A stretch of 48,885 nt of DNA from Nitrospirota bacterium (GCA_015233245.1 JADFYB010000007.1:1-48885), one strand, 5' to 3'; shown: positions 8,427 to 28,651, numbered from the stretch's first letter. Notes: generated from the letters alone by a model not told the origin. A program made the numbers and translations.

Positions 8427-8870
8427 ATGATTGGAGCAAACGCAATGACAGAACAAAGAATTATTAAGAGGTCGTCGGCAGAGATGGTTAATAATAGAAA
8501 GGGTTTTACGCTTATGGAGATACTCATAGTGGTTATGATTATAGGTCTTATTGCCTCTTTGATAGCTCCTAATATTATGGGCAGATTTGCTAGATCACAG
8601 GAGGAAATAGCCAAGGCGCAAGTGGAGATGCTCTCCTCCTCGGTACAGTCCTTCTACCTTGATATTGGGCGCTGTCCGGCTGATTTAAATGAACTGATTG
8701 CTTCTACGGAAAAGCTATGGAGAGGACCGTATCTTTCTAAAAAAATCATTCCCGATGACCCCTGGCACAGAGCCTATCAGTACAAGTGTCCCGGCGAACA
8801 CGGCACTTTTGACCTCTATTCCCTTGGGCCTAACGGCAAAGTGGATGACCAGATAATAAAAAATTGGTAA
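8427..8870 (+). CDS. gspG: Type II secretion major pseudopilin GspG (true start possibly ATG 8484)
   Basis: Prepilin site RKG/FTLMEILIVVMIIGLIASLIAPNIMGR; DPWHRAYQYKCPGEHGTFDLYSLGPNGK. Confidence 0.93.
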   Translation: MIGANAMTEQRIIKRSSAEMVNNRKGFTLMEILIVVMIIGLIASLIAPNIMGRFARSQEEIAKAQVEMLSSSVQSFYLDIGRCPADLNELIASTEKLWRGPYLSKKIIPDDPWHRAYQYKCPGEHGTFDLYSLGPNGKVDDQIIKNW

Positions 8871-11853: not shown

Positions 11854-12308
11854 GACAAAAGGGTTTTACCCTTATAGAGCTGCTTATCGTGATAGTAATC
11901 ATAGGCCTTATTTTTGCTGTGACAGTGCCGGTCTCTGTCAGGATGTACAACAGGTATATGGCCTCCCTTGAAGCTGAAAAGGTTATGCTCTTTATGTTTA
12001 AGCTCCAAAGGGACTCATTTCTTGACGGAGATGAAAAACTGGTAGAAACCGACACAGGGCTAATAACGGTTAACGGAGTTCCCCAAAAATTCTCAGAGGA
12101 GTTCACTGTTAAATCAGAAGGGCCGCCTCCGGAATCACAATCCGGTAAAACCAAAAGTAACTTCGTATATATCCCTACCCCGATACTGTTTTTTACAAAC
12201 GGCACAACCAGCGGAGGCATTGTGATGGTCTATGTAAAGGATTTCATTTTTGCCGTAAAGATAACTCCGCCGTATGGTGAGATTCGTATGAAGGCTCATA
12301 ACACATGA
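11850..12308 (+). CDS. gspH: Type II secretion minor pseudopilin (GspH-like)
   Basis: RQKG/FTLIELLIVIVIIGLIFAVTVPVS; position directly after gspF with 4-bp overlap. Confidence 0.8.
   Translation: MRQKGFTLIELLIVIVIIGLIFAVTVPVSVRMYNRYMASLEAEKVMLFMFKLQRDSFLDGDEKLVETDTGLITVNGVPQKFSEEFTVKSEGPPPESQSGKTKSNFVYIPTPILFFTNGTTSGGIVMVYVKDFIFAVKITPPYGEIRMKAHNT
12292..12308. repeat. Direct repeat copy 1, AGGCTCATAACACATGA
   Basis: Identical to 13018-13034; includes the gspH stop codon. Confidence 0.9.
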
Positions 12309-12386
12309 GTAAATCGTTTCATTTAGCTTTTTACCGGCTCTTAACCGTTTTGTATGGGTAAAAGAATAAGTCCTTTTGTTTAATTA

Positions 12387-12653
12387 TCAATAAACATCAT
12401 CATGAGGACCTATGTTGAGGAGATATATGTTGTCGTCGGATAGCTTAAACGTAATACGGATGTCCTCGGTTACAAAACATGAGTATCTATCTTTCAGATT
12501 GCCTGAGAGTTTATGAGTTTTCAAAGAAGGTGTGAAAGGATTTTCTTGTAAAGTCTTTAAGATTTTCAGTAGTTTTTCATGTATTACTTTTGAGTTTTTG
12601 GTAATCCTGGATGACTGCCGCATAAAGTGCTTTTCGAGTTTAAGAGTGGGCAA
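12387..12653 (-). CDS. RelE/YafQ-type toxin of a type II toxin-antitoxin module
   Basis: HKLSGNLKDRYSCFVTEDIRITFKL...IYLLNIGPHDDVY is typical of RelE/YafQ mRNA interferases. Confidence 0.82.
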   Translation of the reverse strand: MPTLKLEKHFMRQSSRITKNSKVIHEKLLKILKTLQENPFTPSLKTHKLSGNLKDRYSCFVTEDIRITFKLSDDNIYLLNIGPHDDVY

Positions 12654-12656
12654 AAA

Positions 12657-12914
12657 TCATTCTCTCCAGTTTATTATCGCGTCCATAGCCTCTTCAGCAG
12701 TATTAAACGTATAATATTCGCCCCTTTCTTCGGCAGCCAGAGTTTCTTCGATAAATACTTTATTTTTACGTTCTCTCTCAGCAAGATAGGCTGTAAAATC
12801 GGCTATCTCTTTAATGCGCTCAGGGGACAACTCCGGCAGCATATCGATAATGCGTTCAATGTCGGGGTTCATTATAACGGCTACCGGAGCCTTATCAATA
12901 AACGTTTCGCTCAT
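12657..12914 (-). CDS. Cognate antitoxin of the RelE/YafQ-type toxin
   Basis: 85-aa acidic protein ending 4 bp upstream of the toxin start on the same strand; helical, charged. Confidence 0.65.
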   Translation of the reverse strand: MSETFIDKAPVAVIMNPDIERIIDMLPELSPERIKEIADFTAYLAERERKNKVFIEETLAAEERGEYYTFNTAEEAMDAIINWRE

Positions 12915-12983
12915 AAATATATAGTAACATAAGGGAGGTTTGAATGGCTATATCAAACAAAATTAGGTTTGAAGTATTCCTTA

Positions 12984-13014
12984 CGTTGGTGTAATCTTGT
13001 AGATTACACCAACG
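12984..13014. repeat. Perfect palindrome, 14-bp arms, 3-nt spacer: CGTTGGTGTAATCT-TGT-AGATTACACCAACG
   Basis: Arms 12984-12997 and 13001-13014 are exact reverse complements; no flanking T-tract. Confidence 0.9.
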
Positions 13015-13017
13015 CGG

Positions 13018-13034
13018 AGGCTCATAACACATGA
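13018..13034. repeat. Direct repeat copy 2, AGGCTCATAACACATGA
   Basis: Identical to 12292-12308. Confidence 0.9.
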
Positions 13035-13132
13035 ATATATCCATTCTGAACTATGATTTAATTCATAATTCTTGATTCCATGGTTTTAGTCAACTATCAT
13101 AAGAATTCTACTGTTTATGCTCAAAATAGTGC

Positions 13133-13459
13133 CTACCGGCGCTCATCATTATATTTTAACCTGCTAATGTCATCTTCCAATTTATCAAGGTCATGATTTA
13201 TTCTCTCTTTTTCATGATAAGTAAGCTTTCCATCTACTTTCATGCGATCAATTTCTTCGACAATCCTGTCTAACTCTCTATGAAGCCTTTTTGCTTCGTG
13301 CTCTGACAGAGATCTGTTTCTAATCCCGTTTTCAATCTTTTCCTTTGCATGCTTAACCCTTTTGTGTATTCCCCCATGCCAATCCTCTTCAGCATAAGCA
13401 ATTGCAACCATACCAAACATTACTATAACTAACATCGCCGCTAATGTCACTCTTTTCAT
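13133..13459 (-). CDS. Small exported helical protein, unknown function
   Basis: ATG 13459 with AGGGAGAG upstream; signal peptide MKRVTLAAMLVIVMFGMVAIAYAEE; repeated charged helices LSEHEAKRLHRELDRI / LTYHEKERINHDLDKL. Confidence 0.7.
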   Translation of the reverse strand: MKRVTLAAMLVIVMFGMVAIAYAEEDWHGGIHKRVKHAKEKIENGIRNRSLSEHEAKRLHRELDRIVEEIDRMKVDGKLTYHEKERINHDLDKLEDDISRLKYNDERR

Positions 13460-13540
13460 ATCCACTCTCCCTGTACCTTTAATCAATACCGCCTGAACAT
13501 GGCAGCTCACTTACGGAATACCACAAGCCATAAATTAAAT

Positions 13541-13576
13541 AAAACCATACAAAAAGTATCCTTTTTGTATAGTTTT
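13541..13576. repeat. Near-perfect hairpin, 16-bp arms and 4-nt loop (possible terminator)
   Basis: AAAACCATACAAAAAG-TATC-CTTTTTGTATAGTTTT; one non-Watson-Crick position, a G-U wobble in a minus-strand transcript. Confidence 0.75.
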
Positions 13577-13636
13577 AAAAGAACATTTGATAGCCTTTTC
13601 CCAATTAAAAAACTTTTGGGCAATGGATGCAACGTC

Positions 13637-13650
13637 TAAATAAATCTGTC
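13637..13650 (+). repeat. Left inverted repeat TAAATAAATCTGTC
   Basis: Exact reverse complement of 14930-14943. Confidence 0.7.
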
Positions 13651-13690
13651 ACCGTTATTATTATATATGTATGTGTCCGTTTCTTGTCCT

Positions 13691-14214
13691 TTACTTTGTC
13701 CGTCCGTTCCTATTATTGTCGATATGTTCAATTTTAATATCTCTCACTTTAAAAACAGTACCCATAGGGGCAAATCCAACCTTAAACATCACTAAGGCGC
13801 TTATGGATGGATTACCATCAAATTCTGCTTCATATATTTCCTCTTTATTAGCTGGAATATCGAACGATCTATCATTAAGATAACGTTTACGATAATCATT
13901 ATCATTTTGAATGTCTAATATTAATTGAAAAGCTTTATCCGATGATGCTATGAAGGTCATAAGATATTTTTGCCCTTGGTTTGTTTTAATAAAATTAGAC
14001 CCGATGACCTGTATATTCCCCGCGGTTTCAATCAATGTTTTTTTGATCTTAACCTCAAAACCATAGCCGTTTGGGGTGAATTTGCAGGAATGATCCGTAT
14101 TTTCAATATAAGGTTTACGCCATTGATTAACAGTCAACTCCTCTGCTTCAGCTCCAATCAAACAGACAAAAATAGTTACATAGAAATTGTTAATAAAGCA
14201 ATAGACTTTTTCAT
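13691..14214 (-). pseudogene. Frameshifted gene for an exported protein of unknown function
   Basis: ATG 14214 with AGGAG upstream encodes MKKSIALL; the frame must then shift to NNFYVTIFVCLIGAEAEELTVNQWRKPY... to give a complete signal peptide plus the 156-aa ORF. Confidence 0.65.
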
Positions 14215-14247
14215 ATTATTCTCCTTACTTCTTAATCATTTTCTGCT

Positions 14248-14823
14248 CTATTTATTCACGTATAAAATACAGTGAAATTCAGTTGATTTTGCCTCCTTTG
14301 TAACACCCGTAAATGGATTATATAGCATGTAAATATTTTCAGCGATTTTTTTATCTGTCCAATAATAATAGTTTGGTAATTCGTTAACACATTTTTTTTC
14401 ATTTACTATTTGAGATAACTCATCTTTAGTATGCGGCAACCGCTTACCATCCCTTTTTGCTTCAAAAGAAGCATCAAAAAATGTGTCTTTCTTAACATCA
14501 CAGTCCGATTCAGATGGAGCTTTTGTTTTTGGAATCAGATGGTTTGATTCAGTTGGTATAGGCTTTACAGGTTCAGTGCTTTGTGGTAATACTTTATTTG
14601 TTTACAGTTTATTACTCTGTTTCTTGTGGTCTTTTGACCGTTCGCTATTGAAATAGTTAATAATAGTATGTATAGTAACATTGCTATATGTGTTATTGTT
14701 TCCGCCATTCTTTATATCTTTGCTACCCTTATATTGAATTATAGCAACTACAAACGTAATTATAGCAGTTATTAAAGCTACAACAATTATAATTATTTTA
14801 ACAATAGATGTCCATTTTTTCAC
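14248..14823 (-). pseudogene. Membrane-anchored protein gene split by an in-frame TAA (14604-14602)
   Basis: ORFs 14602..14823 and 14248..14439 are in the same frame; the 54 codons between them contain no other stop (TNKVLPQSTEPVKPIPTESNHLIPKTKAPSESDCDVKKDTFFDASFEAKRDGKR). Confidence 0.65.
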
Positions 14824-14852
14824 ATAACCACCTTTGAACTGCGAATTTATTT

Positions 14853-14891
14853 ATAGTTTATATTATATACAATAAACATAATATAAACTAT
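14853..14891. repeat. Perfect 14-bp inverted repeat with 11-nt spacer
   Basis: ATAGTTTATATTAT (14853-14866) / ATAATATAAACTAT (14878-14891), 30 bp upstream of the minus-strand start at 14823. Confidence 0.8.
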
Positions 14892-14929
14892 TTATCAAAT
14901 TATGACAGAATAATATATATAGTAATATG

Positions 14930-14943
14930 GACAGATTTATTTA
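14930..14943 (-). repeat. Right inverted repeat GACAGATTTATTTA
   Basis: Exact reverse complement of 13637-13650. Confidence 0.7.
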
Positions 14944-15121
14944 CATTTTCCTTAAGCACCTAAACTGGACAGAATGATTAAGGCAGCAAAATCTTGCGTA
15001 AGTGTACATTATTTATAGAGGCTTGTTATATTCCTACTGAGTGTTGTGTTATAGCCGATTTTGAGGTATAATATAGTAGGGCTGACGTTTTTAGAGGAGA
15101 TTGCAAGCATTACAAAGGAGT

Positions 15122-15310
15122 ATGATGGAAAAATACGTCTATTGGCAGAATGAGGTTGTGTGGCTTGGATATTTGGAGAAATATCCAGATTACATGACAC
15201 AAGGTGAGACCATAGAAGAGTTAGAGGAAAATCTCAAAGATATTCTTAAAGAACTTTCAGGGAACGATATTCCTTGTGTTCGTAGAGTTGCCGAACTACA
15301 AGTCTCTTGA
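15122..15310 (+). CDS. hicB: HicB-like antitoxin (short form)
   Basis: WLGYLEKYPDYMTQGETIEELEENLKDILKEL matches the HicB partial RNase H-like fold; ORF track starts at 15101. Confidence 0.82.
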   Translation: MMEKYVYWQNEVVWLGYLEKYPDYMTQGETIEELEENLKDILKELSGNDIPCVRRVAELQVS

Positions 15311-15480
15311 AAAGAAAAGACCTTATTTATAAGATAGAACATAATGGCTGTATCTTGATCAGGCATGGAGGGAGACACGATTGGTATCAGAATCCTAGTA
15401 CACAAATTTCACAACCAATTCCAAGACATAACGAAATCAACGAATATCTCGCCAAACATATTATTAAGAGATTAAAATAG
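15307..15480 (+). CDS. hicA: HicA-like toxin, TTG start overlapping the hicB stop; absent from the ORF track
   Basis: Manual translation of 15307-15480: (M)KRKDLIYKIEHNGCILIRHGGRHDWYQNPSTQISQPIPRHNEINEYLAKHIIKRLK*; HicA HGG-H and QPIPRHNEI motifs. Confidence 0.88.
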   Translation: MKRKDLIYKIEHNGCILIRHGGRHDWYQNPSTQISQPIPRHNEINEYLAKHIIKRLK

Positions 15481-15613
15481 AGTACGGCTTGTAATCATGG
15501 CCGTAGTTGATATTACGTTTTTAATTTTGCTAAAACCTGACATTTTCACTTTGGCTAAACAGAGTCAATTCGCGTTCTTGAAATAAAAAACCATAGGGTG
15601 TATAATCTTTTAA

Positions 15614-16024
15614 ATGCTTAAGCAGTCAACGCCGCTAAAAAAACAGTTAACAAACAAAGGGTTTCTTGTAATAGAGATTCTGATTTCCGGTCTTATCCTT
15701 ACAGCCTCCATAGCGGCCAGCATGTACCTTTTCAGGATTGGCTACGAAAGCCTCTCACGCGCTCGGGATTCCAACATGATCTCAGCAAAAATGCCTGAGA
15801 TAATAGATTTTCTTAAAAACTCCGACTTAGTAGAGACTAAAACCAGCGTTGATATGGGTGATGACGTCATACTTACGTGGAGAGCAACCCCTATAAGGCA
15901 AGGGAAACCTTCTTTGATAATTAATCCGATTAAAGACTACTCACTAACCCTGTATAGGATAGAGTTTGGTGTAACTTACAACCGATTAGGCAGAGAATAT
16001 ATACTAAATGTGCTCAGATATTAA
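15614..16024 (+). CDS. gspI: Type II secretion minor pseudopilin (GspI-like)
   Basis: NKG/FLVIEILISGLILTASIAASMYLF; position before gspJ/K. Confidence 0.75.
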   Translation: MLKQSTPLKKQLTNKGFLVIEILISGLILTASIAASMYLFRIGYESLSRARDSNMISAKMPEIIDFLKNSDLVETKTSVDMGDDVILTWRATPIRQGKPSLIINPIKDYSLTLYRIEFGVTYNRLGREYILNVLRY

Positions 16025-16721
16025 AAAAAATACACGTTTCCTTACGTGGATTAAAGGTTCAAAAGGTTACACTTTAATTGAGGCGGTGGTGGCTGTGGCA
16101 ATATTTTCTGCCATGATGATGCTTGCAATGGCAGCACTTAATCAGGGATTTAAGCAGTACAAGGCTGTAATGGAGGAGGGTGTTAACTTCTGGAAAATAG
16201 CCAGAAGCTACTGGCTGCATAAAAGTGTAAGTGGTGTGGTCTATTACTATGTGAGTGACGAGAAAAGACTTAGCTGGAACACATGGCGTCCTTACATCGT
16301 GTGCAGACCGGATCTGTTAAGCTATGTAAGTAACACCCCGATGGCAGGAGAGCTGCCCGTTGTCGTCTGGATAGTGACAGAGAAAAACTCCGCTAAAGAT
16401 GCCCTCAATCTCATGTACTATGAGCTGCCGGTTTATACAAAAAACATGGAGGATATTAAGCAAGAATTTATAAGCGGAGCGTATAAAAACGGAAACTCCT
16501 TTTCAATTGTTGAAGATGTCACAGATGTTACAATGGAGTGTTACGCAATGGATTCGTTAACAAAGCTCTGGAGCTGGGTACAGAAATACGAGACGAAACC
16601 CGGCGTAACAATTTTACCCTCTGCTGTCAGAATAAATTACAGAAAACATAATAAAAATGAAAGTATTTTTTTTAATATCAGGGTAAATGGAACTTTTCAC
16701 TCAGATCCTAATGTAATATAG
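16008..16721 (+). CDS. gspJ: Type II secretion minor pseudopilin (GspJ-like)
   Basis: SKG/YTLIEAVVAVAIFSAMMMLAMAALNQGF; position before gspK. Confidence 0.8.
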   Translation: MCSDIKKNTRFLTWIKGSKGYTLIEAVVAVAIFSAMMMLAMAALNQGFKQYKAVMEEGVNFWKIARSYWLHKSVSGVVYYYVSDEKRLSWNTWRPYIVCRPDLLSYVSNTPMAGELPVVVWIVTEKNSAKDALNLMYYELPVYTKNMEDIKQEFISGAYKNGNSFSIVEDVTDVTMECYAMDSLTKLWSWVQKYETKPGVTILPSAVRINYRKHNKNESIFFNIRVNGTFHSDPNVI

Positions 16722-16727
16722 TATAAT

Positions 16728-17699
16728 ATGTGTGGTTTGAAGGACTTGCACAGAATAAATTTAACATTATTACGGAACGAAAGCGGCTCAGCTGTTTTGT
16801 TGACGATAATGATAGCGTCAATAATAATAACGGTAGGGTTAGGGTTCAACTGGATTATCAAAGAGCATATAAAAACTGCAGGAGCGCTTAAGGATAAATC
16901 TGAGGCGATGATTTTAGCCGAATCGTCCTTCGATACTTCGATGTTTGCTATCCTAACCGGAAAACTAACCCAGGACGGAGTTGCCTTTACGGATGATTCA
17001 CTCCTTGGAGCCTCTCAGATAATAGCTAATGGTAGTCCATTGTGGGTTAACGAAAACATTATCCTGCGCCTACAGGATGCTAACGGTATGGTTTCTCTGG
17101 CAGCTAACGGTAACACCCTGACAGAAGACTCCGCCTCTGATCTCAAAAAGCTGATAAACACTATTGCACCGGGAAAAAATGCAGACGAAATAGTTGATTG
17201 CATAAATGACTGGATTGATCCTGATGACCTGGTGCGTACAAATGGTGCTGAGTCAGACTACTACAGGATGATAGGCACAGGGTTTGAACCCAGAAATTTT
17301 CACCTGCAGTACCTTGAGGAAATTCTCCTTGTTAAGGGTATGGACATTCAGCTATTTAATAAACTTAAACCCTTTATCACTATGCTAAGAAATGAGGGTT
17401 TTAATGTTAACACAGCAAAACCAGAATTAATAGCAGCTCATTATGGCTTAAGTTCTGATGTTATCGAGCCTCTGAGGCAGCATATGAAAACTAACGCTAC
17501 AGGGGCCATGGAGGCTCTAAAACAGATAGGGGTTGATACGTTATCCTTTTCAGGCACTCAGGCGCGTCCAACCGAGTTTTTTGAAATAACGCTTGCCGTC
17601 AGATCAGGCGAAAGTCTGTACCATATAAAGTCCGGAATCAGTATAAGAGACACGACAGGGTTTTCACCACATTCGGTTTACTATTGGAAAGAGGGGTGA
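16728..17699 (+). CDS. gspK: Type II secretion minor pseudopilin GspK
   Basis: GSAVLLTIMIASIIITVGLGF; LRLQDANGMVSL; DWIDPDDLVRTNGAESDYY; FNVNTAKPELIAA. Confidence 0.9.
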   Translation: MCGLKDLHRINLTLLRNESGSAVLLTIMIASIIITVGLGFNWIIKEHIKTAGALKDKSEAMILAESSFDTSMFAILTGKLTQDGVAFTDDSLLGASQIIANGSPLWVNENIILRLQDANGMVSLAANGNTLTEDSASDLKKLINTIAPGKNADEIVDCINDWIDPDDLVRTNGAESDYYRMIGTGFEPRNFHLQYLEEILLVKGMDIQLFNKLKPFITMLRNEGFNVNTAKPELIAAHYGLSSDVIEPLRQHMKTNATGAMEALKQIGVDTLSFSGTQARPTEFFEITLAVRSGESLYHIKSGISIRDTTGFSPHSVYYWKEG

Positions 17700-17706
17700 G
17701 CAGGAC

Positions 17707-19218
17707 TTGAAATCTGCTAATAAAATAGTTGATGGCATGAAAACCTACCTGAAAAAGACTTTTAAACGTAATACGACAGAAAGTAAGGCAGCCATAACAG
17801 CCTGCTATATATACGAAAGCGGATTTGATTACTTTAAAATTGGAAAAGACAAGGTTGACAGAGCTCTAAATGGCAGAGTTTCCTTTATAAACAAGATTTT
17901 TGGCAAAAACGTCCTCATAATCGGTAAGGAGCTCTCCTTTTACTTAAGGAGCAAGTATCCGCCCACAGGAGATAAAAACCTGATGGGAATGATTTCAAAT
18001 GAACTGGATGAGCTCTTTCCAATGATCACATCCCCGGCATTTTATTTTCATGTATTTGAAAAACACGAAAACTACGTCCTTGTTGATATATGGGCGTGGG
18101 AAAGCGGGATTTCAGGCCGTATAGCCGATGAATTTCCCTATAACTACACAGTACCTGAGGATGTTTTGTTTAAATCCCCTGATTACGAGATCTCTGTGTT
18201 GCAAAATCATGGAAAAACCTTTCTGATAGCTCACGGACCGGAGGGTTTTGTCGGCACACGAGTGTTTGTCAGAGCTGTCAACCAAAGGGACGTGGAAACG
18301 TTCGTTAGAGGACTTGGAGCAGTAAGAGAGAAAATTAAGCTTATCAGGTTTTTTGTTTCAGAAGCGGCAGCGGGTATTAGTAAAGGGTTTTCGCTTACAA
18401 TTCCTGTTTTGGAAACTGAGCCAAAGGACTATCCGGCAGTCCTTGATAATATAGCCGCCTTTAATCTCAGTCCATTTTTATCGAAACCGTGGTATGCAGG
18501 CATTGACATAGAGTTTGTTATGAGAGTTTCTGCTTATTCCTTTGTCTGTTACATGATTTCAACATACATGTCGCTACACAGACTGGATAACACTGCCACA
18601 GAGCTGCAGAGTAAGATTTCAGAGACAAATAAAAAAGTCTTGCTCTTAGCTGAGGTACAGTCTAAGGACATTACATCAAAAGTGCTGACAGCTCTTGCCA
18701 CTAAAGTGAAGGAGACTATGCCGCCTCTTGAAGTTCTGGATGCGCTTGCACTTGCCTCACCGCAGGGTGACCGGTATCAGCAGATTCAGATAACCAACAG
18801 AAACGTAAATGCCATGATGCTTACAGCTGACCCAGCCTCTGCCATAAAAAGCCTTAGCACTAACCCTGCTGTGGAGTTTGTTCAGTTAGTGGGTGAACCT
18901 CAAAAGGATGCCAAAAACTCATACAAGATAAATCTGAGCATAACTATTGCAGATAAAGATAAACTTGAACAGGCTCTTATGATACAAAAAAACATTGTCA
19001 CAGCCTCGTTGCCTTCTTTAAAAGTTGGAGATAGCAATCTTAACTCAATGAAAGCGCCCTCATCACCTCAGTCTGTGATTAAATCTGATAACAATCTTAA
19101 CTCACTAAAAGCGCCCTCAACCCCTCAACCTGCTATTAAGTCCGATAACAAGGTTAACAACTCACTAAGGACGCCGTCGTCTCCTCAGGTACAGTTTAAA
19201 TCTGGTAAGGAGTTTTAG
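17707..19218 (+). CDS. gspL: GspL-like type II secretion protein with C-terminal tandem repeats
   Basis: Position between gspK and gspM; cytoplasmic actin-like N-half, single TM, fimbrial-assembly-like C-half. Confidence 0.7.
   Translation: MKSANKIVDGMKTYLKKTFKRNTTESKAAITACYIYESGFDYFKIGKDKVDRALNGRVSFINKIFGKNVLIIGKELSFYLRSKYPPTGDKNLMGMISNELDELFPMITSPAFYFHVFEKHENYVLVDIWAWESGISGRIADEFPYNYTVPEDVLFKSPDYEISVLQNHGKTFLIAHGPEGFVGTRVFVRAVNQRDVETFVRGLGAVREKIKLIRFFVSEAAAGISKGFSLTIPVLETEPKDYPAVLDNIAAFNLSPFLSKPWYAGIDIEFVMRVSAYSFVCYMISTYMSLHRLDNTATELQSKISETNKKVLLLAEVQSKDITSKVLTALATKVKETMPPLEVLDALALASPQGDRYQQIQITNRNVNAMMLTADPASAIKSLSTNPAVEFVQLVGEPQKDAKNSYKINLSITIADKDKLEQALMIQKNIVTASLPSLKVGDSNLNSMKAPSSPQSVIKSDNNLNSLKAPSTPQPAIKSDNKVNNSLRTPSSPQVQFKSGKEF
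19030..19203 (+). repeat. Three in-frame tandem repeats (57, 57, 60 bp) within gspL
   Basis: DSNLNSMKAPSSPQSVIKS / DNNLNSLKAPSTPQPAIKS / DNKVNNSLRTPSSPQVQFKS. Confidence 0.9.
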
Positions 19219-19223
19219 CGGAA

Positions 19224-19784
19224 ATGTCTCCGAACATAAAACAAACCGGAGCTGGTATAAGCAAGGACAGGATCCGAAAGATCGGATTTTTTCTGGTAGC
19301 ACTTCTCACAATAGCGCGTTTTGGCATAGTGCCTCTGATAACTGAGGTAGAGAAAAAGAAGTCTGTCATTGAAGACTATAAGGTCACTTACGCCTCTAAA
19401 ATGGAGCTCCTGAAACGCTACATGTCGATAGATATGAACGACTACCCTGAGGTAAATCAGGAGCTATCCCAGCTTGTTTTTCCAAAGGAAAGCAATAAAA
19501 CCTCAGTTCAGACCGATATTGTCAAGTTTTTGACTACAACTGCTGAAGGCAGGCAATTAAACGTGTCAAACTTTCAGATGGTTGAGGGCTCAGAGGGTTC
19601 TGTTATTACAGAGGTTACCGTCATCATTAAACTTAGGGGTAAACCAAAAAAAATTATAGAATTTTTGAGAGAAGTCCAAAATCATAAACCTCTTGTCAGA
19701 ATAAAAAACATTGAACTAAATCAATCCGGTGACACAGAGTATGCAGCTAAAATTGTTGCCTCTGCGTACATCAGAAAACCATAA
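19224..19784 (+). CDS. gspM: GspM/PilO-like type II secretion protein
   Basis: Single N-terminal TM, coiled coil, ferredoxin-like C-half; position after gspL. Confidence 0.7.
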   Translation: MSPNIKQTGAGISKDRIRKIGFFLVALLTIARFGIVPLITEVEKKKSVIEDYKVTYASKMELLKRYMSIDMNDYPEVNQELSQLVFPKESNKTSVQTDIVKFLTTTAEGRQLNVSNFQMVEGSEGSVITEVTVIIKLRGKPKKIIEFLREVQNHKPLVRIKNIELNQSGDTEYAAKIVASAYIRKP

Positions 19785-19795
19785 CTTGACAAATT

Positions 19796-20329
19796 ATGAT
19801 GATAAAAGAATATATTAAGGGTGTAACGAAACATTTCAGAGGGGGTACGGGGATAGTTAAACGTTTGCTTCCCGAACTGAAAAAACACAGAAAGGATGTC
19901 TTTATATTGTTGGCCATGCTCAGTCTGATACCAGTGTTGGTGGTTAAAAAGCCTGATATCAGTTTAATAACCACAGGACATGGCGAAAAAAACAAATATA
20001 TTGACAAAAAAACACTCCTTAAGTTAGTTTCAAACGGGATTGATAAACAATATGTGGGGATCAATGACAGAAATATATTCTCTCAGGATGGCAAATACGA
20101 GGCTGAAGCCCCGCCAAAACCAACAAAGACTTACACACTTGTGGGGATAATCAGGGCCAAGATAATTCAAGTGTTTTTAGTGGATAATCTTGGAGGAACT
20201 TATATCATAAAACAGGGTGATACTCTTGATGACGGAACTGTGGTAGCCAGTGTGGATAACATATCAGTGGTGTTGAAAAATGGAACGGAGGAGAAGAAAT
20301 TGAAGATTTTGACGGTGGAAAAGAAATGA
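19796..20329 (+). CDS. gspC: GspC-like protein (TM plus HR domain)
   Basis: DRNIFSQDGK...TYTLVGIIRAKIIQVFLVDNLGGTYIIKQGDTLDDGTVVASV; directly before the secretin. Confidence 0.75.
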   Translation: MMIKEYIKGVTKHFRGGTGIVKRLLPELKKHRKDVFILLAMLSLIPVLVVKKPDISLITTGHGEKNKYIDKKTLLKLVSNGIDKQYVGINDRNIFSQDGKYEAEAPPKPTKTYTLVGIIRAKIIQVFLVDNLGGTYIIKQGDTLDDGTVVASVDNISVVLKNGTEEKKLKILTVEKK

Positions 20330-22548
20330 AATTAAAATATTTTTTAATTATAATACCTGTATTATTTATGTTTTTGTCCTGCTCGATGTTTTATAAAGCT
20401 ACAAAGACTGAAAACGATTCATTTACCAGTGTTTCAGGTAAAGACAATACAACAGCAGACAACATATCGCGGCGTTCTCCAGGCACTGGCTCTTTGCTTA
20501 ATTTTGACGAAAAGAAAAAAGAGGGAAAGGATGAGGAGATTCCATATCCGGTTTACGAGAAAACCTCATCCGAAAAACTGGCAGCTGCGCTTGAACCTAT
20601 AGATTATAAGAAGCTTGTGACTGAAACAAAACCTGTGATGATAAATGTGGATGGAATGCCGTTAAGCGATTTTATCATATATGCTGTGGGAGATGCCTTA
20701 AAGGTGACCTTTTTCATTGATGAGGCAGTAAAGGCGCTTAAGACCCCTGTTACTATCAGAATGACAAAGGAGCTTCCGCCTGAGACAGTGCTTGAGATTG
20801 TTGTTGAGCAACTTAGACAAAACGGCCTTCTTGTGGGAGCCCGTGGCCCAAGCCTGTACATCCTAAAACCTGCCGCCATTGGAGAGCCCACAGATGTGAA
20901 GTTAGGGCGTGGCCTTGTTGCAAGTTCCGCACGAATTGTTCAGGTGGTTCCACTTAGCTACGTAAACTCTGCAGATATTGTACCCCTCATAGGTGAGCTC
21001 TATAAAACAAGCGCAATTGTTAAGAACTATCACAAGGACAATTCAGTTATTCTTATTGGCACGGCTGCCTCAATGAAGGACATATTAAACTTCATAGAGG
21101 TTTTGGACGTACCGTACTTGAATAAGAAAAAAATCATGCTCATGAAACTTGTTTATTGGAAACCAGAGGAGTTCGTAACCCAGATGGCCTCAATTCTGGC
21201 AGGTACCGGAGTCACAGTATCATTAGACCCTAAGATGCCTGGCGTTACGTTTATTCCGATTAAGTTTTTAAACAGCGTACTTGCCATAAGTCCTGATGAC
21301 ACCTCAATGGAGTTGGTGATGAAGTGGAAAAATCGCCTTGATACCTCAGAATCGGCAGGGGCAGAAGAAAAAATTTACGTTTATACCCCCCGGTTTTCAA
21401 TGGCGTCCGAACTGGTTGACTCCATACAGAGGCTTTATGGTTTAAAAACCGGCGTTACACAGCCAAAAAGTAAAACAACCACAGGTGGGCTGCCCTCATC
21501 CTCGTCAAAGCCAGCTGCCGGGAAATCTCAAACTGACGGTGAATTCGCGGTGCCTGCGGCGCTACCCAAAACTGCGGCTACGGCTTCAACAGGGCTTTTA
21601 CCTACAGCACCGGGAGCAGTGGCACCAGAGGTTCCCGGCCTTAAGATAACTGCTGACGATAAAAGAAACGCTGTGCTAATGATGGCATCTCCGTCTATGT
21701 ACCGAACACTGCTGGGTCTCCTTAAGGAGCTTGACACCCCGCCCAGACAGGTGTCAATAGAGGCAACGGTTGCCGAGTTGACTCTTGACGATGAAAACAA
21801 TATGGGCTTTGAGTGGTACCTTGCCGGCAGGATGCTGGGTAACGTGCTTGGAAGTAAATATATTGGACCTTATACATTGGGCACCCTCGGCAACCTTGGA
21901 GTAAGCAGCGGTACAGGCTTGTCTTATTCTTTCACTGCTGACACTGGCAACCTGCAAGCGCTTATAAGTATGTTGGCAAAAGACAAAAAGGTTGAAATCC
22001 TCTCTAAGCCACACCTTATGGTACTTGACAACGAGGAGGCGACAATTCAGGTAGGAAATGAGGTTCCTGTTATAACAAGCGAGGTATCCAGCACAGACCT
22101 AACCTCAACCTCTTCAACGACTCCCAGCGTGTTAAGGAATGTCCAGTACCGGAGCACTGGAGTGATCCTGACTTTAAAACCGACTATAAATTCCGAGGGC
22201 CTTGTCACAGTTGATGTCAATCAGGAGGTAAGCGAGGCTGATACTAACACTACGTCAAGCATAGACTCCCCTTTGATTCTTAAACGGTCAATACATACAA
22301 AAGTAGTGGTTTCTGACGGAAATACAGTAGTGCTTGGCGGTATGAGATCGAAGTCGAGATCACACTCTGTAACTAAGATACCGTTTTTAGGGGATATTCC
22401 TATACTGGGATATTTATTTAAGGCAGATTCAGCAAGCGAGATAAAAACTGAATTGATAATCCTTATAACACCTAAAATAATTCATAATACCGAGGATGCT
22501 ACATCGGTTACTAAAGAATTAAGGGAGGGTTTAGGCTGGTTTCACTAA
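20326..22548 (+). CDS. gspD: Type II secretion secretin GspD
   Basis: N-domains; VEILSKPHLMVLDNEEATIQVGNEVPV; STGVILTLKPTIN; VVLGGMRSKSRSHSVTKIPFLGDIPILGYLF. Confidence 0.95.
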   Translation: MKLKYFLIIIPVLFMFLSCSMFYKATKTENDSFTSVSGKDNTTADNISRRSPGTGSLLNFDEKKKEGKDEEIPYPVYEKTSSEKLAAALEPIDYKKLVTETKPVMINVDGMPLSDFIIYAVGDALKVTFFIDEAVKALKTPVTIRMTKELPPETVLEIVVEQLRQNGLLVGARGPSLYILKPAAIGEPTDVKLGRGLVASSARIVQVVPLSYVNSADIVPLIGELYKTSAIVKNYHKDNSVILIGTAASMKDILNFIEVLDVPYLNKKKIMLMKLVYWKPEEFVTQMASILAGTGVTVSLDPKMPGVTFIPIKFLNSVLAISPDDTSMELVMKWKNRLDTSESAGAEEKIYVYTPRFSMASELVDSIQRLYGLKTGVTQPKSKTTTGGLPSSSSKPAAGKSQTDGEFAVPAALPKTAATASTGLLPTAPGAVAPEVPGLKITADDKRNAVLMMASPSMYRTLLGLLKELDTPPRQVSIEATVAELTLDDENNMGFEWYLAGRMLGNVLGSKYIGPYTLGTLGNLGVSSGTGLSYSFTADTGNLQALISMLAKDKKVEILSKPHLMVLDNEEATIQVGNEVPVITSEVSSTDLTSTSSTTPSVLRNVQYRSTGVILTLKPTINSEGLVTVDVNQEVSEADTNTTSSIDSPLILKRSIHTKVVVSDGNTVVLGGMRSKSRSHSVTKIPFLGDIPILGYLFKADSASEIKTELIILITPKIIHNTEDATSVTKELREGLGWFH

Positions 22549-22780
22549 ATTAATTAAAATATACTTAAGTTTTTGAATTTATATACCGATAATATGATTA
22601 AAAACAACGGGTCGGGCAGGAGTCCGCAAAGGAGGTGGATTGGAACTAAGGGACAGAGAGCCGGGCGCAGGATGCTAAAGATTTATCATACAGGATGTGT
22701 GGGGCCGGTGTTAACAAGGTAGATTGTTTGCGTTAAAACGTTGTAGTATTATAGAGTTTTGGGCAAAGATTTTAAGTCTG

Positions 22781-22809
22781 TTGACATTGGAGGCAACAAG
22801 TGTTATTAT
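22781..22809 (+). promoter_or_regulatory. Candidate sigma70 promoter TTGACA-N17-TATTAT
   Basis: -35 at 22781-22786 is exact consensus, 17-bp spacer, -10 TATTAT at 22804-22809; ~150 bp upstream of the first secreted-protein gene. Confidence 0.75.
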
Positions 22810-22961: not shown

Positions 22962-23582
22962 ATGAAAAAGAGATTGGTATTAGTTTTTTTACTGGCTCTT
23001 GTTTTAACCGTGTTTGTTATAAAGGTTGGCACATATACAGCAACTGCTGCTGACAACGTAACTTACACATTGCCGTTCATTGGTGTTTCCACAAATAACG
23101 TGGTCTATTGCTGGGCATCAAACATGTCAAATGATAATGTGACAGTTTGGGTCTCTACGATGGCTAATACTCTAACCTCGGCACCGCCTGACCAGGTCAA
23201 CTATCAGCTTGGCGGTATGATTATCTATGCAAAACAGTCAAATATGATAACTTTTACGGGAGCAACGACAACATTGGGTTCGGCTGTAGCTGACTTGTCA
23301 CAGCAAGTAGGAACAAACCCAGCTACCTTATTTGGGGCAGCTCTTACATTCATAGGTAGTTATAACGGCGTAACCACAACGATAATAACTGCAGGACCAA
23401 ACACAGTTTTTGGACCGCAGGTTACTACGACTATGAGTACGAACGGCTTGCCAACCGTGCCACTTAGCTGCTTAAATATGGGACTTGCTTGCTACCAGGG
23501 TACCACATCACCTAAACGTAACTTAGTTGGCTACTCTTGTATGGACAGTATTAATACGTATATCAATCCAATTAGTTACTAA
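22962..23582 (+). CDS. Secreted Ser/Thr-rich protein, paralog A, unknown function
   Basis: Signal peptide MKKRLVLVFLLALVLTVFVIKVGTYTATAA; AAGGAGG RBS; shares motifs with the next gene. Confidence 0.85.
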   Translation: MKKRLVLVFLLALVLTVFVIKVGTYTATAADNVTYTLPFIGVSTNNVVYCWASNMSNDNVTVWVSTMANTLTSAPPDQVNYQLGGMIIYAKQSNMITFTGATTTLGSAVADLSQQVGTNPATLFGAALTFIGSYNGVTTTIITAGPNTVFGPQVTTTMSTNGLPTVPLSCLNMGLACYQGTTSPKRNLVGYSCMDSINTYINPISY

Positions 23583-23601
23583 GGTGAAGGAGGAAACTAT
23601 G

Positions 23602-24339
23602 ATGAAGAAAAGATTTATATATTTTCTGGCTCTTCTGCTGGTAATAACCGCAGTGGCTGCTAATGAAAGCAGTAAAAGCGTTATGGCTATGGATAATGTT
23701 TCATACATAATGCCGTTTTTGCACACTAGCTCCAATAATGTTGTGTATTGCATTGCCTCTAATATGTCATCAGATAATGCAACTGTCAATGTAACTGTAA
23801 TGTCAAATCAAACAGGATACACTTTGGCCTGGAGCCCTGTATCTGTCTCAGGAACTCTGTATGCCAGAAATACGATGATGCTTACTTTCTCAGGAACAAA
23901 TGTCACATCTAGCACAGGTGGATCCGGAGATATAAGCAGCTTTGTTACAGCAGATGCCCAAGCTTATGGTGCTATTATTAATTTCTCCGGCTCAAACGTT
24001 CAAACCTCTACATCGGGAGTATGGTATTTGGCTCCTACCTGTGATACACAAATAACCATGGGAAAAGCCTGTGGCAGTGGCAGCCCTGATAGCAACTCTG
24101 ATAAGGGTGGAACTGTTCAACGGGGTGTCACAGCGCTGCCACGTTATACTTTCGGGCGAAGCAATCGTTTGGTAGGAACAACTTTATATGATGTGTATAA
24201 TGGCCGGACGACTGTACCTTTGACTTGTCAGACTCTTCAGATGGCATGTTTCCAGGGTACAACCAGCCCTAAGAGAAATCTCGTTGGTTACATGTGTATG
24301 GATACCATCAATTCCATGTATCCTCCACGCGGTTTATAA
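23602..24339 (+). CDS. Secreted Ser/Thr-rich protein, paralog B, unknown function
   Basis: Start placed at the MKKRFIYFLALLLVITAVAANES signal peptide after GAAGGAGG (ORF track starts at 23527); shares DNVxYxxPF...NNVVYCxASNMSxDN and ACxQGTTSPKRNLVGYxCMDxIN with paralog A. Confidence 0.85.
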   Translation: MKKRFIYFLALLLVITAVAANESSKSVMAMDNVSYIMPFLHTSSNNVVYCIASNMSSDNATVNVTVMSNQTGYTLAWSPVSVSGTLYARNTMMLTFSGTNVTSSTGGSGDISSFVTADAQAYGAIINFSGSNVQTSTSGVWYLAPTCDTQITMGKACGSGSPDSNSDKGGTVQRGVTALPRYTFGRSNRLVGTTLYDVYNGRTTVPLTCQTLQMACFQGTTSPKRNLVGYMCMDTINSMYPPRGL

Positions 24340-24351
24340 TTTTTGATGCAG

Positions 24352-24373
24352 GGCAGGCCTGAAAAGGCCTGCC
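24352..24373 (+). terminator. Hairpin terminator GGCAGGCCT-GAAA-AGGCCTGCC followed by TTACTTTT
   Basis: Perfect 9-bp GC-rich stem with GAAA tetraloop right after paralog B. Confidence 0.85.
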
Positions 24374-24399
24374 TTACTTTTCACCGCTTATCAAACGTT

Positions 24400-26472
24400 A
24401 TGAAATTCACTCATTTCCTTCCTAAAAGTGAGTTTTTTTTTAGAGTGTTGTATCCTTTATTAATAGTTTTATTTGCACTATTAACATATTCCAATACGCT
24501 TAACTGTCCTTTTATCTTTGACGACGATGCTATCAGAAAAGGGACCTCGCTTCCAACTCTGCTTGACCCCAGATTTTTAGTGAATCTCTCTTTCTTACTC
24601 AATTACAAACTTAACTATCTCAGCGTTAAAGGCTACCATGTTTTTAATATTATTATCCATGTAATAAATGGGCTCTTAATATATTCCCTTATTTCGCTTA
24701 TTAGCAAGATTGAAGCAAATGAAAAAAACTACGGTTCTTGTCACAATAATACGCTGGCATTTTTTATTTCCTTAATTTTTATTACCCATCCTATAGAGTT
24801 GTTTGCCGTGACTTATGTTGTGCAAAGAGCTGCTTCAATGGCTGCTATGTTTTATCTGCTAACACTTATTTTCTATGTAAAATTCCGAATCTCACAAAGT
24901 ACTGCTTTAGGAACAAAGAAATTTTACGCATTGTCGTTGCTATTTACTGTTATGGCTGCAAAAACCAAGGAAATCACCATTACATTACCCGTTATGCTTG
25001 CAATGTGTGAGTTTGTTTTTTTTGACGGTAGCATCAAAAAAAGGCTGGCTTTTGTGCTTCCTTTTTTTTTGATGATACCACTAATCATCATTCAGGTAAA
25101 TGCAGTTGGAGTTGATCTTGTTTTCAGTGAACCGCAAAGTAAAATCTATGCACATTCCTCTGTTTCAGGCGCCATTGCTAAATCCCCACTTATTGCCAGT
25201 AACCGTTGGGAGTACCTCTTTACGCAGTTTAAGGTTATAACGACATACCTTCGAATGCTTTTTTATCCCCAGAACCTCACACTTATACATTATTTTACAG
25301 TGTCAAAAACATTTTTTGAACCAAAGGTGATTTTGTCTTTTCTACTACTGCTGACTTTATTTTCATTTGGGGCATATTTTGTATTCATTGACAACAAGAA
25401 AAGCAAATTAACCGGATTTGGTTTGATATGGTTTTTTGTGACCATATCCCCGCAGTCAAGCATAGTGCCAATTCAGGGGTGGATGATTTTCGAGTACAGG
25501 GCATATTTAGCCTCAGTAGGTATTTATATAGCTGTTATTGTGACAGTTTTTGAACTTTTAAAGACTCATTATAGGATTGTTTATATGTTGATGCTGTCGC
25601 TTTTTATTTTACTTACAATTTTGACTTATAACAACAACAAAATCTGGATAACTGAGATATCCATGTGGGAAAGAAATGTGAAAGTGGAGCCGCTGCATCC
25701 TGTCCCACACATAAACCTTGGAAGCGCTTACTTTGCTGCTAAAAGATATGACGCTGCTATAGCACAATTTAAACTTGCGATAGATTTGAGTCCTAACACG
25801 GCTGAAGCCTATAATGATCTTGGGTTAGTGTATGAACGTAAGGGGCTCTTTAAGGAGGCTCTGGAGAAATTTAAATACGCAATGAGTCTTGACCGCTCTT
25901 ATGCCTCCCCTGTCGTTAACCTTGGTATGATGTATATGACAAGAGGAATGAATGAGCAAGCTTTGGAGGAGTTTAAGGCAGCTTTAGAAATCAACCGCTC
26001 TAATCCCGGCGCTCATATCAATCTCGGAGCACTTTACGCAAAAATGGGGCAAAAGGAAAAAGCAATAGAGGAATTTAAGAGAGTAATCGTTACCAATCCA
26101 AATATAGTTGAGCCATATGTTAACCTTGCAGCACTGTATGCAGAGCAGGGACTTAGTGCTTTAGCAGAGGATAATCTGAAAAAGGCCATGAAGGTTGATC
26201 CATACTTCTCGGACACATATAACATAATGGGCACAATATACGAGGAAAGAGGAGCTTTTAATGAGGCTTCTGCCAATTATCAAAAAGCAATCCGATATAA
26301 TAATGACAATATAAATGCCCGCCGCAATCTTGCAGTGATTTATCTAAAACAGGGATTGATAAGCGATGCTGCTAATCAGTACCGCTATATTTTAAGCGTA
26401 GCACCGGATGACGTTGAAGCAAAGGGATCACTATTTTCAATACAACGGCAGTTAAACGGGCAGAGGCCTTAA
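24400..26472 (+). CDS. Multi-TM TMTC/PMT-like glycosyltransferase with C-terminal TPRs, copy 1
   Basis: NCPFIFDDD acidic loop after TM1, GYHVFNIIIHVING, PQSSIVPIQGWMIFEYRAYL; then ~6 TPRs (AEAYNDLGLVYERKGLFKEALEKFKYA etc.). Start moved from 24343, which lies in the terminator. Confidence 0.82.
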   Translation: MKFTHFLPKSEFFFRVLYPLLIVLFALLTYSNTLNCPFIFDDDAIRKGTSLPTLLDPRFLVNLSFLLNYKLNYLSVKGYHVFNIIIHVINGLLIYSLISLISKIEANEKNYGSCHNNTLAFFISLIFITHPIELFAVTYVVQRAASMAAMFYLLTLIFYVKFRISQSTALGTKKFYALSLLFTVMAAKTKEITITLPVMLAMCEFVFFDGSIKKRLAFVLPFFLMIPLIIIQVNAVGVDLVFSEPQSKIYAHSSVSGAIAKSPLIASNRWEYLFTQFKVITTYLRMLFYPQNLTLIHYFTVSKTFFEPKVILSFLLLLTLFSFGAYFVFIDNKKSKLTGFGLIWFFVTISPQSSIVPIQGWMIFEYRAYLASVGIYIAVIVTVFELLKTHYRIVYMLMLSLFILLTILTYNNNKIWITEISMWERNVKVEPLHPVPHINLGSAYFAAKRYDAAIAQFKLAIDLSPNTAEAYNDLGLVYERKGLFKEALEKFKYAMSLDRSYASPVVNLGMMYMTRGMNEQALEEFKAALEINRSNPGAHINLGALYAKMGQKEKAIEEFKRVIVTNPNIVEPYVNLAALYAEQGLSALAEDNLKKAMKVDPYFSDTYNIMGTIYEERGAFNEASANYQKAIRYNNDNINARRNLAVIYLKQGLISDAANQYRYILSVAPDDVEAKGSLFSIQRQLNGQRP

Positions 26473-26476
26473 GTTA

Positions 26477-28651
26477 ATGTTTAGAAAAAACTCAATAATT
26501 TTGTTAGCCATTTTGGCTTCTGCATTTGTTCCTTATTTGAATGTGCTAAACGCACCATTTGTTTTTGACGATACTGTTATTTCTAATTTTATTAAGATGA
26601 GGAGTTTTACAGAAGTCAGGTTTATTACAGAAACTACTTTTACTCTTAACTACTTAATTAACGGCTTTTGGCTACCTGGCTACCATTTAGTAAATATAAC
26701 ATTACATGCGTTAAATGGAATATTTGTGTATTTGCTCATAGTTCAAACATTGAAAATACAATTTTCGCCAGTCAGCTCTGCTAAGAAGTATGCATTGTTC
26801 ATTTCGCTGCTTTTTCTCGCACATCCGCTGCAGATTCAAGCTGTGACATATATCTCACAAAGATATACATCACTTGTTACTCTTTTTATTTTGTGTGCAT
26901 TAAACATGTACATACTATGGAGGCGAGCCGTTACTGTGGAGGACAGCAGCGATGCATTAATAAAATATACTAAAAAGAAATCAGTCGGACTGTACATGTC
27001 GGCAATCATAATTGCCATGTTGTCCGTAAAAGTTAAAGAACTTGCAGTTGTGCTGCCGTTTTTAATAACTCTTGTAGAATTTACCTTTTTTAGCGGTAAA
27101 GTTAAATCCAGAATATTATGTGTTGTACCGTTTTTTTTGATTTTGCCAGCTGTGTTTTTTAATGCTTTGGGCGTATCCAGTATTTCGTTTGACAACCAGG
27201 TGCAAACCCAGTTTGTAACAGCTGGGAATATTCAGGATGTTGCTATAGTGTATGACGTAAAAAGCCCTCTGATAGCAAATACCAGGATGGAGTATATTCT
27301 TACAGAATTCAGAGTTATTGTTACCTATTTAAGAATGCTTGTGTTGCCTCTTAACCTGACTTTAGTTCATTATTATCCTGTTTCAAGGAGTTTTTTTGAT
27401 TTAAGGGTTATTCTTTCGCTTTTATTTCTTTTGGCAATATTTCTTTTTGGAGTTTTTATGTTCTCACAGGGATATAAACAAAAAGATATCATGAAAAAAC
27501 TCATCTCTTTCGGGATATTTTGGTTTTTCATAGGGATTTTACCCCAGTCAAGCCTTATCAATAAGTACGGTTGGACTATTTTTGAGTACAGAGTTTATAT
27601 GGGATCCCCTGGATTCTTTATTGCCGCATTTTTTCTGACACTACACGTTTTTAGAAATAAACCTATGCAGATTTTCAATTATTTGATTTTGACTATAATT
27701 GTTCTCAGCACTGTTTCGACACTTTACCTTAACCGGAACTGGAGGTCTGATGTAAATCTTTGGGAGGATAATGTAAAAAAGGAACCGTTACATCCTGTTC
27801 CCTGCATACAATTAGGAATTGCCTACGGCAATGCTAAACGCTTTAAAGAGGCACACAGGGAATTTGAAAAGGCTGCTCAGATGGAGCCAGACTTTCCTGA
27901 AATACCCTATCACAACGGTAAAGTGTATGTTATGGAGGGGCAATATGACAAAGCACTTGAGCAATTCAATAAATCTATCAGTATAAACGATTCGCTGTCC
28001 TTTACACACCTCGATAAGGCCACAGTGCTTGCAATTAAAAATAAGTGGCCAGAGGTTATAGAAGAGCTAAGACTTACTTTGCAATGTGGAGAGAGCTCTT
28101 TTGCCCTTTATGACTTACTTGGACGGGCATTAACCGCAATCGGTAACATCAGGGAGGCGATAAAGACCTATGAATATGCTCTGAGCCAATACTCTGGCAG
28201 CGCTGAAATGCACAACACTCTGGGCAACCTATACACTCAGACAGGTAATTTTGCTTTGGCTGACTCAGAAATTTTAACTGCACTTAAGCTTAACCCTAAC
28301 CTGTACGAGGGCTATAACAACCTTGGCGTTTTGTATGCTAACACTGGCAGGTTGACAGATGCGGTAAAGGAATTTCAGAGGGCACTTTCAATAAAAAAAG
28401 ATTACATAACGGGATTTACAAATCTTGCTAATGCCTATATGGGACTTAAGATGTTTGACGATGCTGGCAGCACTCTTAATGTAGCAATAGAAATGAACCC
28501 TGAGAGCTTTGAAATATTAACCACAATAGGTAATATGCATCTGCTTAAAGGAAATAAAGCGATGGCCAGGGAATTTTACTTAAAAGCCTTAAAAATAAAC
28601 CCTTCTTATACAGAGGCACTAAGAAACATCGAATTAACTAAAACCAATTAA
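26477..28651 (+). CDS. Multi-TM TMTC/PMT-like glycosyltransferase with C-terminal TPRs, copy 2
   Basis: NAPFVFDDT, GYHLVNITLHALNGI, PQSSLINKYGWTIFEYRVYM; TPRs; clear paralog of copy 1. Confidence 0.82.
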   Translation: MFRKNSIILLAILASAFVPYLNVLNAPFVFDDTVISNFIKMRSFTEVRFITETTFTLNYLINGFWLPGYHLVNITLHALNGIFVYLLIVQTLKIQFSPVSSAKKYALFISLLFLAHPLQIQAVTYISQRYTSLVTLFILCALNMYILWRRAVTVEDSSDALIKYTKKKSVGLYMSAIIIAMLSVKVKELAVVLPFLITLVEFTFFSGKVKSRILCVVPFFLILPAVFFNALGVSSISFDNQVQTQFVTAGNIQDVAIVYDVKSPLIANTRMEYILTEFRVIVTYLRMLVLPLNLTLVHYYPVSRSFFDLRVILSLLFLLAIFLFGVFMFSQGYKQKDIMKKLISFGIFWFFIGILPQSSLINKYGWTIFEYRVYMGSPGFFIAAFFLTLHVFRNKPMQIFNYLILTIIVLSTVSTLYLNRNWRSDVNLWEDNVKKEPLHPVPCIQLGIAYGNAKRFKEAHREFEKAAQMEPDFPEIPYHNGKVYVMEGQYDKALEQFNKSISINDSLSFTHLDKATVLAIKNKWPEVIEELRLTLQCGESSFALYDLLGRALTAIGNIREAIKTYEYALSQYSGSAEMHNTLGNLYTQTGNFALADSEILTALKLNPNLYEGYNNLGVLYANTGRLTDAVKEFQRALSIKKDYITGFTNLANAYMGLKMFDDAGSTLNVAIEMNPESFEILTTIGNMHLLKGNKAMAREFYLKALKINPSYTEALRNIELTKTN

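Follow-up and report, generated by a model that had tools for sequence, protein, structure and literature searches.

How a type II secretion system (T2SS) recognizes its cargo is the question raised by a 48,885-nucleotide stretch of DNA from a Nitrospirota bacterium (the window, G000:C223:1-48885, a single contig of the 3.47-Mb draft genome G000), in which the secretin gene gspD is followed on the plus strand by genes for two secreted paralogues and then by genes for two TMTC-like paralogues. A universal recognition element for T2SS cargo is not known, a situation that has been contrasted with the C-terminal domain (CTD) read by the type IX secretion system (T9SS) (PMC12802150, 2025), and T2SS export in magnetotactic Nitrospirota is mentioned in general terms only (PMC8353452). 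A sequence-only reading of the window had noted twin signal-peptide paralogues directly after gspD and twin TMTC-like paralogues behind them on the same strand; this arrangement was confirmed, with coordinates that were right except for the start of the first TMTC-like gene. The interpretation given in that reading was supported in part, and it missed the main point, namely a C-terminal domain common to dozens of proteins. We favor, with modest confidence, the view that a C-terminal module specific to this lineage marks T2SS cargo and that the twin genes specify domain-only members of it. The two genes are as follows.

22962-23582 (+): P0001, 206 aa, Sec-type signal peptide and the C-terminal domain alone
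23599-24339 (+): P0002, 246 aa, Sec-type signal peptide and the C-terminal domain carrying an internal insert

The C-terminal domain and its place behind gspD

P0001 and P0002 share 36% identity (E 8e-39), and their mature forms are rich in serine and threonine (24-26%) and poor in charged residues (4.5-9%). A search of the contigs of the same genome returned 56 match pieces on many contigs, which resolved into 29 proteins after the loci were collected; the domain family thus numbers about 29 copies in G000, and 43 in a sister genome. The part common to its members spans 130-220 aa, with a compact core of ~140 aa, and is almost always located at the extreme C-terminus. Conserved elements include Y-x-[LIM]-P-[YF], YC-x-x-[ST]N and C-x(6)-C[FYL]QGTTxPKRNLxGYxC, of which the four cysteines and the QG and PKR motifs are near-invariant, and the terminal residue is Y, F or H in 26/29 copies of this genome and 39/40 other copies, compared with ~18% of background open reading frames (ORFs). 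The N-terminal passengers comprise a PQQ propeller, a trypsin-like protease, a subtilase, an SBBP propeller, BNR repeats and weak InlB-type repeats, frequently accompanied by Thr-rich linkers. Several contigs (L053, L056, L057, L063; L018, L028, L032) stop in or just past family genes, a possible sign of repeats or of variation among strains.

The domain has no NCBIfam model or curated Pfam match in searches of both libraries, apart from a weak DUF5719 match in one family member only. A PDB sequence search with the domain profile gave no match, no relative was detected on viral contigs, and a comparison of the domain model with a library of viral structures yielded nothing useful. Three known classes of protein were considered and rejected: a T9SS (Por) CTD, given the lack of an NCBIfam match and the wrong anatomy; the GlyGly-, MYXO- and PEP-CTERM tags, again without an NCBIfam match, the proteins here ending in short polar stretches with a terminal aromatic residue; and a pilin or pseudopilin, since no N_methyl match was found. 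As in T9SS cargo, many otherwise unrelated exported proteins end in a conserved beta-rich domain, but the Nitrospirota domain is linked to a T2SS and is distinguished by its four cysteines, the QGTTxPKRNLxGY motif and the terminal aromatic residue. GlyGly-CTERM and MYXO-CTERM are likewise C-terminal tags carried by many proteins, and the GlyGly-CTERM protein VesB is a T2SS effector retained at the cell surface (PMC13393428); those tags are short and tripartite, with a transmembrane helix and a basic tail, and are cut by an intramembrane protease, whereas the Nitrospirota domain is predicted to be folded, is ~140 aa long and has no hydrophobic helix.

The distribution of the domain is narrow. 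Of 150 order genomes, 18 gave strong matches, every one of them in a single GTDB family, and a scan of 396 genomes of the phylum gave 14 matches, 12 of them in that family and the 2 others weak. Within the family, 19/20 genomes carry 1 to 43 copies, and the sole genome without the domain (G092) is also without this gspD. Across the GTDB genome collection, a pattern scan detected the domain in Nitrospirota only, and the named carriers (n=29), all Nitrospirota, include Ca. Magnetobacterium casense, Ca. Magnetominusculus and related metagenome-assembled genomes.

Linkage to gspD was assessed in the 17 family genomes with this gspD, 16 of which have readable downstream sequence. The next gene on the same strand is a member of the domain family, in 1 to 4 copies, in 14/16 of these; the earlier suggestion of exported proteins tied to gspD is supported by this deeply conserved linkage and by the look of the proteins as exported. 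In three other families of the order (G056, G083, G104, G347), the orthologous gspD is followed on the same strand by a signal-peptide protein of ~487 aa, with a 126-aa ORF intervening in G104. The last ~120 aa of this protein in G056 and G347 form a weak but recognizable relative of the domain (27 bits, C-x-Q-x-DPAG-x-KR), and the proteins of G083, G104 and G347 align along their length with that of G056 at 23-32% identity. A surface protein encoded after gspD is therefore older than the family, and the C-terminal part of that protein seems to have persisted.

The T2SS operon and expression of the secreted pair

The genes upstream of the pair, and the signals around it, are listed below.

8864-10645 (+): gspE
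10642-11853 (+): gspF
11850-12308 (+): gspG
15614..20329 (+): minor pseudopilins, gspK (16728), gspL-like (17707), gspM (19224) and gspC-like (19796)
20326..22548 (+): gspD, secretin (Pfam Secretin 1.2e-47, Secretin_N; N0/N1 domains)
22568..22591 (+): sigma-28 (FliA) type promoter, AGTTTT-N12-CCGATA, a conserved motif upstream of the first post-gspD gene
22622..22654 (+): short leader hairpin around AAAGGAGGTGG, in which 22622-22625 pairs with 22651-22654
22781..22809 (+): sigma-70 type promoter, TTGACA-N17-TATTAT, the top promoter match in the region (11/12 positions)
24352..24373 (+): terminator-like hairpin GGCAGGCCTGAAAAGGCCTGCC, conserved in G002, G015 and G027

The operon extends from gspE (8864) to gspD (22548) and unites a secretin, an ATPase, an inner-membrane platform and pseudopilins, which identifies it as a T2SS locus. 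The products of gspE, gspF and gspG match Pfam T2SSE, T2SSF and N_methyl, with NCBIfam GspE/GspF matches below the curated cut-off; the block at 15614..20329 has matches to N_methyl, T2SSK_1st and T2SSM_b/PilO, and gspL and gspC were assigned by position and by conserved homologues at the same place in relatives. Orthologues of gspD share the neighboring gene family-wide. Between gspG and the next pseudopilin gene lies a 3.3-kb stretch (12309-15613) whose small ORFs look toxin-antitoxin-like, including a RelE-like ORF (12387-12653) with a partner (12657-12914) and HicB/HicA-like ORFs (15101-15480). The corresponding gap in G002 is ~1.6 kb, only the first ~650 bp being common to both, and in other genera the two genes are adjacent. 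In Magnetobacterium-type genomes (L104, L105, L118), a GH57-like gene is present upstream of gspM, so the operon seems to be split there.

A gap of 413 bp separates gspD from the first secreted gene and contains two candidate promoters. The sigma-28 type motif (AGTTTC in one genome) is located 386 to 540 nt before the start codon in four genera (g1, g2, g5, g7), against a background of 0.015 per kb per strand over all loci collected. In G000 and G015 the motif is also located ahead of flagellin, and one match in G015 lies in front of an FlhF-like gene; this company is the basis for assigning it as a sigma-28 type promoter. TTGACA with a -10-like box is found at the equivalent place, nearer to the gene, in 11 of the 12 genomes compared. 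Control of the whole domain family by sigma-28 was rejected, as a clear site was detected only at the post-gspD gene and at one pair in G100.

The leader of the first secreted gene, ~390-540 nt long across genomes, contains at 22592-22780 conserved, repeated CAGGATG motifs, which resemble CsrA sites and may act as such. An invariant AAGGAGGTG sits in the small covarying leader hairpin, for which 97.9% of the cells in an alignment of 12 genomes are paired and two of the four pairs show changes on both sides. Flagellin leaders bear GCCGGATGC hairpin-like motifs. An Rfam scan of the window and the leader gave no credible RNA family. Downstream of the pair, the hairpin at 24352-24373 has a changed outer stem in G002, G015 and G027 and keeps its T-rich tail, which is weakest in G002; a consensus terminator scan of the region did not list it. 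With its own promoters and this terminator-like hairpin, the secreted pair is probably its own transcription unit.

The TMTC-like pair

Two further genes follow on the plus strand; beyond them, a NUDIX-like ORF, gatB and gatA are encoded on the opposite strand.

24400..26472 (+): P0003, TMTC-like GT-C/TPR protein 1, TPR Pfam matches (listed ORF 24343-26472, start revised)
26477..28651 (+): P0004, TMTC-like GT-C/TPR protein 2, TPR Pfam matches

The TTG start listed for P0003 at 24343 would read through the conserved hairpin, so translation more likely begins at the in-frame ATG at 24400. P0003 and P0004 share 35% identity (E 5e-121), and both have a DD motif after the first transmembrane segment (TM1) and C-terminal TPR arrays. 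D40, D41, R142, K189 and Y368 are invariant in 12 TMTC-like homologues and correspond to the DD, Arg, Lys and Tyr of the GT-C motif list for the human TMTCs (PMC7801869); the pair keeps these GT-C-type positions, in line with the earlier account. The DD motif behind TM1, the loop positions of Arg, Lys and Tyr and the C-terminal TPR region are shared with human TMTC1-4 and the ArnT and PMT enzymes of the GT-C class (PMC7801869); unlike those enzymes, the Nitrospirota proteins have no Pfam TMTC/PMT match in the transmembrane half and show E-x-R-x-Y in place of ERxxY. Among their relatives, only the paralogue L106:3124 reaches PMT_2. A PDB sequence search with the enzyme profile gave no match, and a single-sequence search gave chance matches only; a structural model built from five sequences (pLDDT 73, pTM 0.59) had TPR or repeat proteins as its top 50 fold matches. 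Elsewhere in the window, another GT-C-like protein is encoded at 40339-42042 (PMT_2 E 1e-4, below the curated cut-off).

Orthologues of P0003 are present in G002, G015 and G027, and 4/4 genomes of the genus retain the gene order gspD, secreted genes, TMTC, TMTC despite GspD identity down to 78% and TMTC1 identity down to 65%, which argues that the layout is not due to chance. TMTC-like genes also recur at or near the site elsewhere (L104, L105 and L111, with L150 in another family): between the GH57-like gene and gspM in G076; two genes on and on the opposite strand in G084; directly after the secreted gene in G057, where a distant TMTC type precedes another GT-C-like gene; and convergent, 70 bp from the surface protein, in G083 of another family. 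These belong to different TMTC lineages, and three lineages were found against 0.18 expected (rough Poisson P 9e-4), a figure that assumes long contigs, includes cases found while looking and serves as a guide only. The four-gene block near gspD put forward by the sequence-only reading therefore stands across the genus, with TMTC-like genes recurring elsewhere, but does not extend to the domain family, most members of which have no TMTC neighbor, an outcome that the sequence-only reading had itself named as refuting its interpretation. The conserved terminator-like hairpin between substrates and enzymes also speaks against it.

Joint duplication of substrates and enzymes is not supported, nor is a one-to-one pairing, and strict co-duplication was rejected. 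The copy numbers disagree, with four secreted genes to two enzymes in G002 and, in Magnetominusculus-type genomes, two secreted genes without any linked TMTC. In the trees, the secreted pairs of g1 fall into one clade and those of g2 into another, so they were duplicated separately in the two genera. The paralogy of TMTC1 and TMTC2 within g1 is old; a common duplication of secreted and TMTC genes in the ancestor of g1 is possible.

There is a substantial chance, though short of even, that the TMTC-like pair modifies other targets, such as a lipid-linked glycan, flagellin or other exported proteins, and that its adjacency to the secreted pair is incidental, a view compatible with the proposed role of the domain. 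TMTC relatives occur in every family genome except G092 and G067, and in G000 many of them are tandem pairs inside glycan gene clusters without domain family members. Near-duplicate clusters L034 and L035 (contigs C259 and C169 of this genome) have TMTC tandem pairs near a PseG-like gene (pseudaminic acid synthesis). The hairpin that parts the secreted pair from the TMTC unit fits such a view, as do seven Magnetominusculus-type (g2) genomes which, together with one g7 genome, have secreted genes without a linked TMTC, although some of these contigs end soon after the pair. Against it stand the linkage in every genome of the genus and its repeated origin with different TMTC lineages. TMTC is a real but lineage-limited companion of the secreted pair, and in this genus it is plausible that the TMTC-like proteins O-glycosylate the Ser/Thr-rich secreted proteins in the periplasm before export.

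Export signal or surface anchor

In the favored interpretation, domain-bearing proteins would be exported by Sec into the periplasm, where the beta-sandwich would fold and be stabilized by two disulfides; the adjacent T2SS would then recognize the cargo via this C-terminal domain and pass it through GspD to the cell surface. The post-gspD pair would be the main, and probably abundant, surface cargo, a role suggested by its tandem promoters, one of the flagellin type, and its long leader, and ~30 other proteins (subtilase, trypsin-like protease, propellers, BNR repeats) may use the domain as a ticket or as a surface anchor. The observations in support are the presence of the domain after gspD in most genomes of the family, the joint absence of domain and gspD from G092, the near-complete restriction of the domain to this family, the ~487-aa proteins behind gspD elsewhere in the order, the near-invariant motifs and terminal residue, the C-terminal location of the domain behind a variety of passengers, the promoters and the enzyme motifs. 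In a stronger version, put forward tentatively, the T2SS would recognize a dedicated, folded C-terminal export signal, present on up to 29-43 cargo proteins of a genome and encoded in its plainest form immediately behind gspD, in the way that the T9SS recognizes its CTD.

Several observations weigh against this interpretation. Adjacency to gspD would be expected of a dedicated cargo no less than of a common export signal. In G100 and G067, the two exceptions to the linkage, the family genes are located away from gspD, and in G116 and G129 the family is present and gspD was not found, in assemblies that are 84% and 75% complete. Most family genes have neither a sigma-28 promoter nor a TMTC neighbor. 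Finally, the fold that matches most closely is one proposed to bind sugars, which would suit anchoring better than a signal.

This last point introduces a second alternative, in which the domain is a surface-binding module for glycans or the cell coat that retains exported proteins on the cell once they are secreted, rather than an export signal, and the post-gspD pair is the main coat protein. The P0001 domain was modeled as an all-beta sandwich (mean pLDDT 79, pTM 0.76), and the best PDB fold matches by Foldseek probability were the Anabaena sensory rhodopsin transducer and a Thermotoga relative, with probabilities up to 0.96, E-values from 0.13 and a TM-score by target of about 0.45-0.61; the ASRAH superfamily is typified by an eight-stranded beta-sandwich (1NC7, 2II7). 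The Anabaena match itself (probability 0.96, TM-score by target 0.57-0.61) speaks for this alternative, since the ASRAH superfamily is proposed to bind sugars (PMC2739507) and the invariant N25, which ends strand 19-25 of the domain, corresponds to its hallmark Asn at the end of strand 2; secreted ASRAH versions are also fused to enzymes. On the other side, the Foldseek E is only 0.13, the hallmark Trp at the start of strand 1 is missing, the conserved strand-1 aromatic residue being Tyr, and the Nitrospirota domain has an extra four-Cys C-terminal segment and no firm sequence link to ASRAH. The modeled domain is therefore described as ASRAH-like in fold, and membership of the superfamily is not claimed. 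As an anchor alone would leave the fixed place after gspD and the terminal aromatic residue unexplained, this alternative is considered rather unlikely. A third alternative treats the post-gspD proteins not as cargo but as accessories of the T2SS or of a surface structure that it builds. This would suit their fixed place and the domain-only forms without a catalytic domain, but is improbable in view of their own promoters, which imply more than operon read-through, the amplification to 29-43 copies with enzyme passengers and the lack of an N_methyl match.

The main choice is between an export signal and a surface anchor. Both predict a common C-terminal domain, and only an export signal predicts periplasmic accumulation once the domain is removed. 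The Aeromonas S-layer protein is exported by a dedicated T2SS and encoded beside the T2SS genes. The Nitrospirota pair resembles it as a likely surface protein beside T2SS genes; array formation is not implied, the signs of S-layer-type abundance being indirect (tandem promoters and a long leader). With one small domain common to dozens of likely cargo proteins and encoded next to gspD, the question of T2SS recognition would become testable by simple domain transplant. The analysis also names a likely surface-protein system for magnetotactic Nitrospirota, tied to a flagellin-type promoter, and if the T2SS does read the domain, this would be a new variant of type II secretion with T9SS-like logic.
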